Positions 25,440 to 31,223 of a stretch of 64,000 nucleotides of DNA are shown here, in pieces. Both the position numbers and the translations under genes were made by a program. The stretch comes from Cavenderia fasciculata (lineage: Eukaryota; Evosea; Eumycetozoa; Acytosteliales; Cavenderiaceae): assembly GCF_000203815.1 (NCBI RefSeq), contig NW_004457729.1, forward strand, positions 3,286,674-3,350,673. Reading direction: 5' to 3'. The notes below the pieces were generated by a model. It made no database searches. It saw only the letters and a program-made list of their open reading frames with translations, and was not told the origin of the DNA. The first letter of the stretch is position 1; each line of letters starts with the position of its first letter.

Positions 25440-25945
25440 GGAGAGGGGATGCAAATGTGAGTCATCATTGCACATTGTTAGATCGTGATGATTGGATTGG
25501 ACGCCCAATCAAACCCACACCACACCACAATCTTGAGAGATACCCAATAAACAATTTGCATTGACAAAAATCTAAAACGTACCTTTCGATCAGCTGCTGA
25601 CCTTGTCACGAGACTTGCAGCTGTGAGAGAGGGAGAGAGAAATCTCTCACGATTTTTTTTGGTGCACTTTTCACCTACCCAACCGAGTCAGCAGTCAACC
25701 TTCGGTCAATTTTGTTTTTTCATTGTGCTTTTGAGTTTGTAGCCTGCTGTGTGCACTAACACTATCTTTGTCTTTCCCTTGCTTTAAAGTGTTGCTTATT
25801 ATATCTATTACTACAAGATATATAGAATATATATTCAATAACAAGAAATTTCAATTTGTATATATATATTATATATTAGATTAATGTTATCATCTTAGTA
25901 TTTTTTAGATATATATATATAAAGAGATAGATAGATAGATAGAAA
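25440..25945. other. Intergenic spacer with core promoter elements
   Basis: The first half is more mixed in composition. It includes CAGCTGCTG and GCAGCTGTG, near-complements about 30 bases apart around 25592-25628, and GAGAGAGGGAGAGAG. The second half is AT-rich with a TATA-like element next to the eIF4E-like start. No gene is seen. Confidence 0.55.
25906..25925 (+). promoter_or_regulatory. TATA-like element upstream of the eIF4E-like gene
   Basis: The 20 bases TAGATATATATATATAAAGA sit 20 bases before the ATG, followed by GATA repeats. The identical 20-mer occurs at 43986-44005 upstream of the IRE1-like gene. Confidence 0.4.
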
Positions 25946-28900
25946 ATGTCAAATTACTTTAACGTATTACAACAAGATGAAGATGATGATTTTGTAAACA
26001 TTGTAGATGAATCATCAATCGAACAACAAAAGTTAAACATTATTGAAAAGGAAAAGGAAGCAGCTGCTGAAAAGGAGGATGCTACTACCTCGGATAATGT
26101 TCCAACTACTACCGCCACTACCAATGCCACCCCAACCAACACTACTACTACAACAACATCAGATGAAGAACAAGTAACAGAATCATTCCCTTACAAACCA
26201 ACTAAGAGACAAGATTTACAATTCGATGTACAATTTGACTTTTCAGCAGAGTACAATGAAGAAGAATCGGCCAAAGAATTCACTCAACCATGGGTAGTAT
26301 TCTTTGACAAGAAGAACAAAGAAAAAATCACTCCAGCACCCGCAAACCCAGGAGAAAACGATCAATATCTTCAAAATATTAAAAAGATTGGAACATTTAA
26401 CACTTTAAATGTATGTTGTTTGTCAAATCACTATTGAAATGTTGGAACATATATATATTAATATATCTGTTTCTATTTGTCATTCATCATCATTATTATA
26501 GAGTTTAAAGGAATTATGGAAAGGTTTATCATCACCAGTTGACTCTAATATCAGTATCTTTAAGGAAGGTATTGAACCAGCTTGGGAAGATGTAAAGAAT
26601 AAGGATGGTGGAAAATATGTAAGTTGATAGAAATAGATAGATATTTATTTCTACAGAGTATACTAATCAGATGATATCTATTTCTATATTTTCTTTTATT
26701 ATTAGTCTGTAAATTATATGAAAGATCATCCAGAATTTTCAAGAGTATTAAATAATTGGTTTTCTTTATTAACTACAATTGTACAAGAATCAAAATGGGA
26801 ACATTATAGTCAAACTGTAAAGTATACAAACAAAAGTATAGTTATATCTACTTGGTTATAGCTAACAACCTTTTTATTTTTTTTAATACTTTTAGAATGG
26901 TATTGTTTTATCATTTAGAAGTTGGGGTGTTAGTATTAATCTTTGGAATGATAATTCAGACAATCAAGATGCTGTTCAAGCTCTCAAAGATACCATTCAA
27001 AATATATTAAAGGTTAAATATGCCAAATTCTCTTCTCATAATGTAATTATCACAAATTAGATCTGAACCACCAATTCGATTTTGAATACTTATTTCTATT
27101 ATTATTTTTTTATAGAATACAATTTTCTTAAAAACATTAAAAAAGAATGATGAAAAGAAGAAAAAGACAAACAAAATGTATGGAAAGATTGATCACAATT
27201 CAAATTTCCAATCCTATATGCAATCTAATAACTTACAGGTAGAGGATGGATGGAGTATTGTTGGTTCATCGGTCAGCCAAAACAAGAACCCATGGTCATC
27301 GACAAACCCAGCCCGTAAGATCAAGCCAATGCAATCGTCATCTGATGACTTGAGAACTCGTAGAGACCAACAAATCGCTCGTGAAATGCAAATTGCCAAG
27401 GAAATGCAATTGTCCAAGGAGTCTCTATCAAATACTACCTCGTCGTCGTCGTCGTCATCGTCTGAACCAGTCCCAGAGATTCCACAAGGTGTTAATGCCT
27501 GGTCTACTGGTATCCTCTTTGGAAAGGGTCCATCTGACAAGTCTGAACAAACTGTCCCAGAAACTACCACTACCACCTCCACTACCTCTGTTCCATCATC
27601 CAAGATTGTTGAACAACAACCAGCTTGGGGTGCAGTCAAGAATGTCGACTGGCAAAGAGAGATTGAAGAAGGTGAGATTGTCGAGGATGACTCAATTGTC
27701 ATTATTGCCAAGTCAGAGGAAGACAAGCCAGCTGCTGCTGCTGTCGACGTCCAACCAGTTGTTGTTGCTGCTGAAAAACCAAAGGTCAATGCTTGGGCCA
27801 CCGGTCTTTTCTTGACTCAAACCAAGCCAGAGGTTGATACCACCATCAAGGTTATCAGACATGAACCAACCCCACAACCACAAACAGTCAAACAACAAGA
27901 GTTGGAAGAAGGAGAGATTGTAGAAGAACAAGTTGCTGTTGTTCCAGAAAAGGTTGAAAAGAAAAAGACAGTCGAAAAGAAGGAACCAAAGAAATCTAAC
28001 AACAACAAAAAGGAAGAAAAGACAATTGTTGAAAAGAAGGATGAAAAGAAAAAGGATGAAGCTTTCTGGGAGCAAGATAACAACAAAAACAACAATAATG
28101 GTAAAAAAGTCACAACAACCAAAGAAGGAAGAAAAGAAGGAGGAAATCGATCCAGAACTCCCACCACTTCCAACCAAGAAGCCAGATAGAGAAGCTGAGC
28201 GTAAAAAGGAGAGAAGAAACAGATTCATCGTTCCACAAGTTTCATTGTGGGAAAAGAATGATGTTCTCAAGATGATGGAGACTGTTCAAGAGCAAAAGCA
28301 AGAGGAAGAACATATTGCCACCACCACTGCTGCTGCTACTGTTGTTGTCGCTCCAGTTGCCATTCAAGAAAGAGTTGTCATCTCTATCAAGCCAAAGACT
28401 GAAGAGAAAAAGATTGCCATCGAGACACGCAAGCCAACCGAAGAGTGGATCGAAGCCGACAAACCAAAGAAGAAGAAGCAAGTCGAAGAAGAAACTACCG
28501 AACAAGACAACAATACTGCTGAAAAGGTAGTTGAAAAGAAGGTCGAAAAGAAAAAGATTGAAAAGGTTGTCATTACTCCAACTCCAACCAATATCAAGAA
28601 CAAAAATATTTTATCAGCCTTGGAGGTTGAAGCACCGCTAGTTGTTACTCCAAAAAAGAACAAGTCTAATCAAACTACAGCAGTACCAGTTCCAGTTACA
28701 ACTCAAAATACTACCACCACGCAATCAAATAATAACAATAATTCACAACCACAAGTTAAAAAGACTAATACTTCAACAACAACAACAACCACCAACAACA
28801 CTACTACTGCTGCTGCTGTCGCGAAGAAACCAACCACCACTACCAACGCCCCTGTCACTACTACCGCCACTACCAAAAAGACTAACAACAATACCAACAA

Positions 28901-29078
28901 CAAATCAGTTACCAAGGCAACTAATACTACAACAACTACCACTACCAAATCAACATCCAAATCCAAAACCCCATCCGCCATTGAAACCATTTTTACTCCT
29001 TCACTCATTATGAACCTTGGTATTGTATTTGTTGTTTTATTACTTGGATTTATTCTTAAATATCTATTTTCCAATTAA
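25946..29078 (+). CDS. eIF4E class II-like cap-binding domain with long charged tail and C-terminal membrane anchor
   Basis: Exons 25946-26410, 26502-26618, 26706-26816, 26896-27042 and 27116-29078, about 933 aa if one base is skipped in the A6 run at 28103-28108. Residues about 105-280 are an eIF4E fold: PWVVFF, YLQNIKKIGTF, KELW (Trp 161), GIEPAWED (Trp 183, Glu 184) and FRSWGVSINLW (Arg 239, Trp 248). The QNIK-IGTF segment and loss of the second cap-stacking Trp resemble the 4EHP (eIF4E2) class, which usually represses translation. The tail has two EEGEIVE motifs, two NAW[SA]TG motifs and Lys/Glu- and Thr-rich stretches. It ends in a hydrophobic segment (about 908-929, IMNLGIVFVVLLLGFILKYL), which fits a tail anchor. 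If the last intron is retained, translation stops at 27058-27060 and gives a soluble eIF4E. Two separate genes remain the alternative. Confidence 0.75.
28103..28108 (+). other. A6 run at a reading-frame break
   Basis: Coding is clear in one frame up to NNNNGKK (about 28108) and clear in the +1 frame from SQQPKKEE (about 28110) onward. Removing one A joins the two. A sequence or assembly error in the homopolymer is the simplest reading; a real frameshift allele is possible. Confidence 0.8.
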
Positions 29079-29239
29079 AAATTTTCAATATATATCTTTA
29101 TAAATATATTTATACCCTTTTTATAATTATATAATTCATAATAATAAAAATAAATTTACCCATTTTAATATTAATACACATGTGATGTAATATTTAATTT
29201 AATACTCTTATTTTTGTTTGGTTTATTTATTAATTTTTT

Positions 29240-31223
29240 TTAAATATTTAATAAAGATAAACAAACAAGAGGTAAAACCAAATTATCTATTTGGGTAGTT
29301 GATGCCTCAATTAAACAACATAGTGTAGAGGTAATAATGATGTGAACCAGTGTGGAGAGGGTAAAAGGAATACCAATAAATGGTAAGAGTACAAGACATG
29401 CCAAAACGGTGCATGTGATACCACCGATGGTTCCTTGTAATGATTTGGAGGTACCAAACATTTTTGTACGTCCATATCTCACTCCAAAATAGGATGCTGC
29501 ACTATCACCAACACCAATAGTTAGCAAACCGGAAAAGATAGAAAGCAGTGGCTTGGTTGTAGAAAAACTAATGTCGAGATAGAATGGGATAACAACAGGA
29601 ATCGAGCATCCAAGCAATAGGTAAATATGGGTAAGTGTAATAACACCAGAATCTCTTGCGTCCAAGAATGCGTCCATGTATCCGGCAATATATTTTCCCA
29701 TCGGAGGAACTCTACCATATTTCAATATTTCTATTAGTATCAATGCACTGATTGATACTCCAAATGATAATGACATGAATGTTCTTTCCATCAATATCCC
29801 TGGTAAAAACATTATAATTGCTAATAAATGGAAATATTTTCTTAATATTATATTTGGTTGTTGTTGTTGTTGTTGTTGTTGTTGATTATTTGTTGTTGAT
29901 GATGTTGATGTTGATGATGATGATGATGATGTTGATTTCTTTGATGTTGATGTAGATGTTGATGTTGATGTTGATATAGATGTAGAGTTGTTATTATTGG
30001 AAGAAGGAGGTGAAAAGAATAAGATGGTAACAAATAGTAATCCAATCCAACATGCAATAACGGTAATTCTATTTCCAACAGATGATTGGTATAACATTTC
30101 GAGTGATTCTGGAATGAGGTAGGTTTGTAGCCAAAGGAATATATTTTGACCAATTAAATGATAGAGTAATGGATAGTAGACTCCAAATATCATAAACAAT
30201 GCAATCGTGTAGAATAATAGTACATGGAGTGAAAACATTGTGTTTGATTGTTGAATCAACGCATTGTTTCGTATAAATGTAGTCAGTCTAGATGTTACTA
30301 TACCAATGAGTATAGCACCAATGATCAATACAACAATTGCAACTTTAATAACTTGTAAATTATCAGTCATAAATTCCAACTCTTTGACACCACCACCACC
30401 AGACCCTGGCCAAGGATTGACATGATCCCATTGATCGTATAAATAGAAAATCGATGGTATTGAAAGTGATGAGATCAACTGACTTATAATAGATGCCTCT
30501 CCAAATGTAAAACTAGTTTGGAAATAATTTAATATTGCTTTGAATAATATTATAAATAATATATTATATCCAATTACAAATATCATTGCTTCTATTCCTA
30601 AAAGGATAGTACAGATAAGTTAATAATCATATAGTGTTATTAATATTATTATCAATTGACATACCAAAAGTAGTATAATCAATTACTATAATGAGTAGAG
30701 AGATTAAGATTAAATGTAGATACTTCTTTTTCAAAATGACAAAGAGTAATGTTACAGATGCTAGGTATGATGCCAAGAGTAGATGTTGTACAGTGACAAT
30801 GGTTGAGAATATATGTGAAGGGATTGAATAGGATGATGACACCATTCCAAGATTAGATGATTTGATCGATGTGTAGACCATTGGCAATAGAGACAGTGCC
30901 AATGGTAGTCCTTGATCCAATCCCTTTTCAGTTCTAGTTGATTTGGTCAATACATGATTAAAGATTGGTTCTTTAATGTAGGATGACAAGATGACTAGAC
31001 CAATATTAATGACAAAGAATATGAGTTCAGATAATGATGATAAAGGTCCATCTATATATCTTTGTTGTTGTTGATCTTGAATACGTTTCAACCTATCGTC
31101 GTCGTCATTGAATAATTTCTTGATAGATGATGATGATGATGATGATTCGTCTCTATGATGTGACCAATACACTAACAAACTACTTATCACTATCAATCCC
31201 AATTCAACTGTTTCTCTTTTCAT
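29240..31223 (-). CDS. Dolichol kinase
   Basis: Minus strand, exons 31223-30665 and 30597-29240, 638 aa. The enzyme uses CTP to phosphorylate dolichol in the ER membrane, making the lipid carrier for N-glycans, C-/O-mannose and GPI anchors. The protein is almost entirely membrane spanning (about 13-15 hydrophobic segments). The C-terminal third has the family signature: RKYFHLLAIIMFLPG, LKYGRVPP, then GVGDSAASYFGVRYGR and KSLQGTIGG, which form the CTP-binding and catalytic region. A Ser/Thr and Gln insert near residues 385-430 breaks the middle loop, as is common in amoeba proteins. The family is normally 510-550 aa, so the extra length comes from this loop and the N-terminus. It converges on the eIF4E-like gene with 161 bases between stops. 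Confidence 0.92.

Follow-up and report, generated by a model that had tools for sequence, protein, structure and literature searches.

The window analysed here is a 64 kb stretch of the Cavenderia fasciculata genome with an AT content of 65.0%. Its plus strand harbours an eIF4E-family gene whose five exons are joined in phase, beginning with the ATG of exon 1 (Table 1). The first four exons measure 465, 117, 111 and 147 nt and are followed by a long terminal exon. All four introns display GT..AG boundaries, lie in phase 0 and have a GC content of 0.21–0.23. A convergent neighbour (29240–30619, minus) appears to encode a multi-pass membrane protein. Above the cut-off it matches no Pfam family, and a GVGDSAASYFG stretch in it is reminiscent of the dolichol kinase or CDP-diglyceride synthase families.

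Table 1. Features of the eIF4E-family gene, in positions of the 64 kb window
Feature	Position	Strand	Content	Basis
Exon 1	25946..26410	+	start codon, acidic N-terminal extension, first part of eIF4E core	open frame, phase 0 join to exon 2
Intron 1	26411..26501	+	91 nt, GTATGT..TATAG, GC 0.23	
Exon 2	26502..26618	+	eIF4E core; W183-E184-D185; Lys158 at Trp73 position	
Intron 2	26619..26705	+	87 nt	
Exon 3	26706..26816	+	eIF4E core	
Intron 3	26817..26895	+	79 nt	
Exon 4	26896..27042	+	eIF4E core, final part	
Intron 4	27043..27115	+	73 nt; if retained, stop at 27060	
Exon 5, first part	27116..28108	+	charged low-complexity tail, eIF4E-core frame	open frame 27116-28189, codon scores, motifs
A6 run, coding-frame change	28103..28108	+	maximum-likelihood switch	
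Exon 5, second part	28110..29075	+	other frame; Thr/Lys-rich tail and anchor	open frame 27924-29078, codon scores
Predicted transmembrane segment LIMNLGIVFVVLLLGFILKYLF	29004..29069	+	stop two residues after	

An earlier note on this DNA had described the last intron as a 73-base intron of normal type, and its GT..AG ends and the in-phase junction of exons 4 and 5 agree with that description. Its retention would indeed end translation where the note had placed the stop. The accompanying proposal of a switch to a soluble form finds no support: an in-phase stop lies 9 to 45 nt into every one of the four introns, so that intron 4 does not stand out by having one.

The eIF4E-like core

The same note had recognized an eIF4E-like core with a WED motif and conserved tryptophans, which is borne out by profile search and by alignment to PDB sequences. 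The Pfam IF4E family (PF01652) matches residues 112–272 with an E value of 3.2e-29 and 102.1 bits, against a curated cut-off of 28.7. Among the 34 PDB sequences matched at E < 0.1, the best three are eIF4E2/4EHP proteins (∼2e-14), followed by eIF4E (2e-12). With positions in eIF4E numbering (W43, W56, W73, W102, E103, R157, K159, K162 and W166), alignment to the 1ej1 chain places Tyr141 at W56, Lys158 at W73, Trp183-Glu184 at W102-E103, Arg239 at R157, W241 at K159, S244 at K162 and Trp248 at W166; Trp116 falls in the Trp43 column of a second alignment, which includes a human row. The cap-stacking aromatics at 56 and 102 are present together with Glu103, and the protein is predicted to bind the cap. 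The dorsal Trp73 on the eIF4G-binding face of class I eIF4E is replaced by Lys158. Two alignments agree on this replacement, and the register is supported by the position of intron 1 in the core, which is common to this gene and to the first intron of the paralog described below (FNTLN/SLKELW and FNSVQ/GFWRYW, the slash marking the intron).

Membership of class II, which had also been put forward, is sustained in part: position 56 is occupied by Tyr, but Trp43 is kept, unlike in metazoan and plant class II proteins. In the defining source, class II members carry a residue other than Trp (Tyr, Phe or Leu) at position 56, and Trp43 is replaced in metazoan and plant members and kept in fungal ones (PMC1260017). 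Among the closest known systems is 4EHP/eIF4E2 (plant nCBP), which is the top PDB match for each of the two anchored proteins discussed here; the window protein resembles it in having Tyr at 56, in keeping Arg157 and in having lost Lys159 and Lys162. With these two lysines lost, as they are in 4EHP too, the cap affinity of the window protein may be low. The differences are the retained Trp43, the Lys at W73, and a tail of ∼650 residues with a membrane anchor, whereas 4EHP is soluble.

The tail, the predicted anchor and the A6 run

When both frames of exon 5 are read end to end, the full product comprises ∼933 residues, of which ∼630–653 form a low-complexity tail. To judge from its composition this tail is probably disordered; its net charge is −1 in the first part and +15 in the second. 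The 331 residues of the first part include 7 Trp. NAW[SA]TG and EEGEIVE each occur twice in this part, a repetition suggesting that they may act as binding motifs, and PAWGA, NPWSS and DGWS are further Trp motifs. No Pfam family matches the tail above cut-off.

The predicted transmembrane segment spans residues 910–931 of 933. Its apparent insertion energy is −3.06; when the last 60 residues were shuffled 300 times, no shuffle did as well. As yardsticks, SEC61B, CYB5A and VAMP2 score −0.76, −0.41 and −4.66. With a mean Kyte-Doolittle value of 2.70 over the best 19 residues of the segment, its frame ranks first among 25 frames in the window that do not overlap and are at least 200 aa long; the ends of two of the other 24 are hydrophobic as well (> 1.6). 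No second membrane segment was found in the protein, the best score elsewhere being +2.40. A single-sequence AlphaFold2 model of the last 78 residues contains a helix at 53–76, with a mean pLDDT of 81 for residues 51–60, 95 for 61–70, 91 for 71–78 and 52–69 for the rest; as a lone hydrophobic sequence tends towards helix anyway, the model lends mild support. These results uphold the earlier observation of a C-terminal hydrophobic segment of ∼22 residues with few residues after it. Tail-anchored proteins such as Sec61-beta, cytochrome b5 and VAMP2 likewise possess a lone hydrophobic segment at the C-terminus (followed by two residues in the window protein and by none in the paralog); what sets the present case apart is a cytosolic domain predicted to adopt an mRNA cap-binding fold.

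The connection between core and anchor is less straightforward than had been supposed. Intron 4 was said to link the core in phase to a long charged tail. The phase is correct, yet the tail is split over two open frames, and in the assembly the frame of the anchor, the second of them, is displaced by one base relative to that of the core. The assembled sequence ends the eIF4E frame at 28189, upstream of the anchor, which gives a product of 637 residues. In 40-codon (120-nt) windows the codon scores are best for the first frame as far as the window that starts at 28016, without exception, and for the second frame from the window that starts at 28076 onwards. The best one-base switch points, 28108, 28105 and 28102, are at the A6 run and together hold 0.53 of the weight. 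After 28076 the second frame scores positively in all windows to its end (0.2 to 17.6), with +16.3 bits over the last 40 codons, and is free of stops for 322 codons.

Bridging introns that would reconcile the frames were sought among GT..AG candidates of 40–300 nt with a frame-correcting length, those with GTAA, GTAT, GTGA or GTAG donors being listed. The 26 candidates were rejected: their GC content is 0.33–0.44, against 0.21–0.23 for the introns of the gene, and none has a T-rich acceptor. The least bad of them, 55 nt long at 28101–28155, is improbable.

Reads of the 454 type are prone to homopolymer errors. Such an error in the assembly is what most likely shifts the frame at A6, as the species was sequenced with dideoxy and Roche 454 technology (PMC5282741). 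On a rival view the A6 run is correct and the gene truncated; its product would then be a soluble eIF4E whose charged tail ends at 28189, and the anchor-coding stretch would be a relic. This would match the reading of the assembly, but the second frame keeps its positive codon scores and freedom from stops to the very end, and is so clean that a relic would have to be very recent; we consider truncation very unlikely. Slippage at A6, by the ribosome or by RNA polymerase, would allow one gene to supply both the soluble 637-residue form and an anchored form. The coding signals of the two frames do meet at a homopolymer; however, six A are short for transcriptional slippage, and the paralog needs no such device, so that slippage deserves scant credence.

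An intact paralog and the question of two genes

A profile search of the genome (31.0 Mb in 21 contigs, with 10 IF4E candidates scored) yielded nine IF4E matches that group into six loci. One of these, L011 (G000:C14:1764309-1766294, minus; L011:2310-4295), consists of three exons with introns of 60 and 78 nt and encodes 616 aa free of stops. Its IF4E match has an E value of 8.2e-37 and 126.8 bits; its best PDB match is eIF4E2/4EHP (4.4e-28), with the wheat-type class I eIF4E 2idv near at 7.5e-28. The dorsal Trp is kept (GFW). The last ∼380 residues are of low complexity and devoid of Trp, and the final 22 form a hydrophobic segment with an insertion energy of −0.76, equalled in 0 of 300 shuffles; a helix is predicted over 55–82 of an 83-residue C-terminal stretch. 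Here the anchor is in the same frame as the core, both being contained in the open frame of the last exon. That frame ranks first in 13 of the 14 codon-score windows of the exon, and although the scores become weak near the end (−5.5 and +1.5, and +1.4 for the final 40 scored codons), it is still the best of the three frames.

At the other four eIF4E loci, whose 3′ ends were modelled by eye (the locus L013 in both ways tried), no C-terminal anchor was found, the best end scoring +4.8. The two anchored proteins pair with each other at a support of 82/88, below the starred level, in a tree of 10 rows in which the window row is a long branch. They appear to have their layout in common and not their tail sequence: no similarity between the two tails was seen, and when parts of 275 and 169 of the 653 residues of the window tail were searched against the genome, they found only themselves and one hit with an E value of 0.8. 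The window tail contains no YxxxxL-phi motif, and the sole match in the paralog tail sits inside the hydrophobic segment. The idea of a membrane-anchored eIF4E, raised in the earlier note, thus draws its strength above all from the paralog, in which eIF4E core, low-complexity tail and C-terminal anchor are found intact. It is probable that the genome contains two eIF4E-family genes with a tail anchor, one of them intact; the window copy taken by itself is shaky, and the case for the pair is stronger.

A different arrangement of the window locus would be two tandem genes: a first one, lacking intron 4, for a soluble eIF4E-like protein that ends at 27060, and a second, beginning with the ATG at 27176, for a tail-anchored protein of low complexity. 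The Pfam core match does stop within exon 4, at residue 272 of the 280 coded by exons 1–4, and the beginning of exon 5 is AT-rich, its first 100 nt having the lowest 100-nt GC content (0.23) in the whole of 27116–29078. The codon score of 27116–27175 was considered as proof of exon 5 and discarded: it looked supportive against few controls but failed a proper null, as the first 60 nt of the exon are matched or beaten by 70% of the open noncoding windows (n = 9,887) and by 53% of those that are A-rich (n = 569). The scores of this stretch are accordingly compatible with noncoding DNA.

Several observations weigh on the other side. By the same criteria an in-phase intron arises by chance in 170 of 16,730 AT-rich noncoding windows of 151 nt (1.0%), a count in which the windows overlap and the criteria were fixed after intron 4 had been seen. 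The gap between the two genes would be just 115 bp, and two out-of-frame ATGs precede the in-frame ATG at 27176, the first of exon 5. No AATAAA occurs at 27043–27300, and three occur at 29079–29300; because an AATAAA lies within 120 nt of only 10 of the 21 window frames that reach 250 aa (a set that includes two frames of this gene), its lack after 27060 counts for little. The GC profile is of similarly modest value: the 100-nt GC content falls to 0.11–0.18 at 25800 and at 29080–29200, but the spacer upstream of the gene (25450–25750) has 0.37–0.48 over much of its length, so that the lack of a low-GC gap in exon 5 or at A6 speaks only weakly for one gene. The paralog, with core and anchor in a single open frame of its last exon, also argues against two genes, which would moreover leave the frame change at A6 to be explained. 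Two genes meeting near 27060–27100 are therefore unlikely. One gene giving rise to a single anchored product is the reading that we prefer, with a probability of roughly 0.75.

Putative function and related loci

A single anchored product would combine an N-terminal extension, an eIF4E/4EHP-like cap-binding core, a long disordered tether and one C-terminal transmembrane helix. Insertion of the helix would follow synthesis, with the endoplasmic reticulum (ER) as the most likely membrane, and the core, on its tether, would face the cytosol and keep capped mRNAs at the membrane. That such a cap-binding product tethers mRNA at some membrane is an assignment that we favour by a small margin. If a single anchored product is granted, the ER is a somewhat better candidate than not for the membrane in question: by general rules, a long tether of mixed charge and a very hydrophobic helix, beyond which the end is short and weakly charged, point to an ER tail anchor more than to a mitochondrial one. 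The genome also holds a Get3-family match (at C17), of a family that matches in 14 control prokaryote genomes too.

The dorsal Trp73 is the site used by eIF4G and the 4E-BPs. As it is replaced by Lys in the window protein, recruitment of eIF4G in the usual way would probably be impossible, and the mRNAs held by the core would then be stored, silenced or positioned, translation not being started. Given a single anchored product, a tether of this non-initiating kind is reasonably probable, and the protein may act as a repressor. The opposite role would be promotion, with capped mRNAs brought by the anchored protein to the surface of the ER or of mitochondria and translated there. The paralog at least, whose dorsal Trp is kept, could bind an eIF4G-like partner; the window protein, however, has Lys in that place, and both anchored proteins are most like 4EHP among solved structures, albeit with 2idv nearly as close in the case of the paralog. 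A promoting role seems to us rather unlikely.

A more elaborate scheme would regard the tail-anchored eIF4Es as a dictyostelid subfamily of cap receptors, in which the window member, deprived of W73 and so of the eIF4G/4E-BP site, docks Argonaute through the Trp motifs of its tail and forms a silencing platform on the ER. The Argonaute component derives solely from a likeness of these motifs to GW-type motifs and from three genomic sites with Piwi-domain matches; the scheme as a whole is quite doubtful.

Membrane-bound mRNA tethers are known in AKAP1 and SYNJ2BP, which an anchored eIF4E would resemble in holding mRNAs on a membrane; these are not cap-binding proteins. To our knowledge, eIF4E proteins have been treated as soluble factors. 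The accessible parts of four accounts of eIF4E diversity contain no mention of a membrane-anchored eIF4E (PMC3388326, PMC11791286, PMC1260017, PMC7139794). Within the open-licence literature no report was found under membrane-bound eIF4E as a named phrase or under dictyostelid translation initiation factor 4E, and the only match to eIF4E, cap-binding protein and C-terminal transmembrane in combination concerns cilia. An anchored cap-binding protein, if real, would imply that mRNAs can be sorted or silenced at a membrane via the cap itself, and the occurrence of two such genes in genetically workable amoebae would make this directly testable.

The combination of Trp43 and Tyr at 56 in the window protein is also reminiscent of the signature of fungal class II and of class III (eIF4E3). 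In the tree the human eIF4E3 row stands apart from the anchored pair: it joins, at 85/90, the eIF4E paralog L013 (G000:C9:275778-276208, plus), which may be an amoebozoan eIF4E3-like gene. Class III is reported only in Metazoa in one survey (PMC1260017). Adjoining the eIF4E paralog on C2, repeated open stretches with PRRPVPRS-like units (L010:952-2332, minus) perhaps constitute a tandem repeat.
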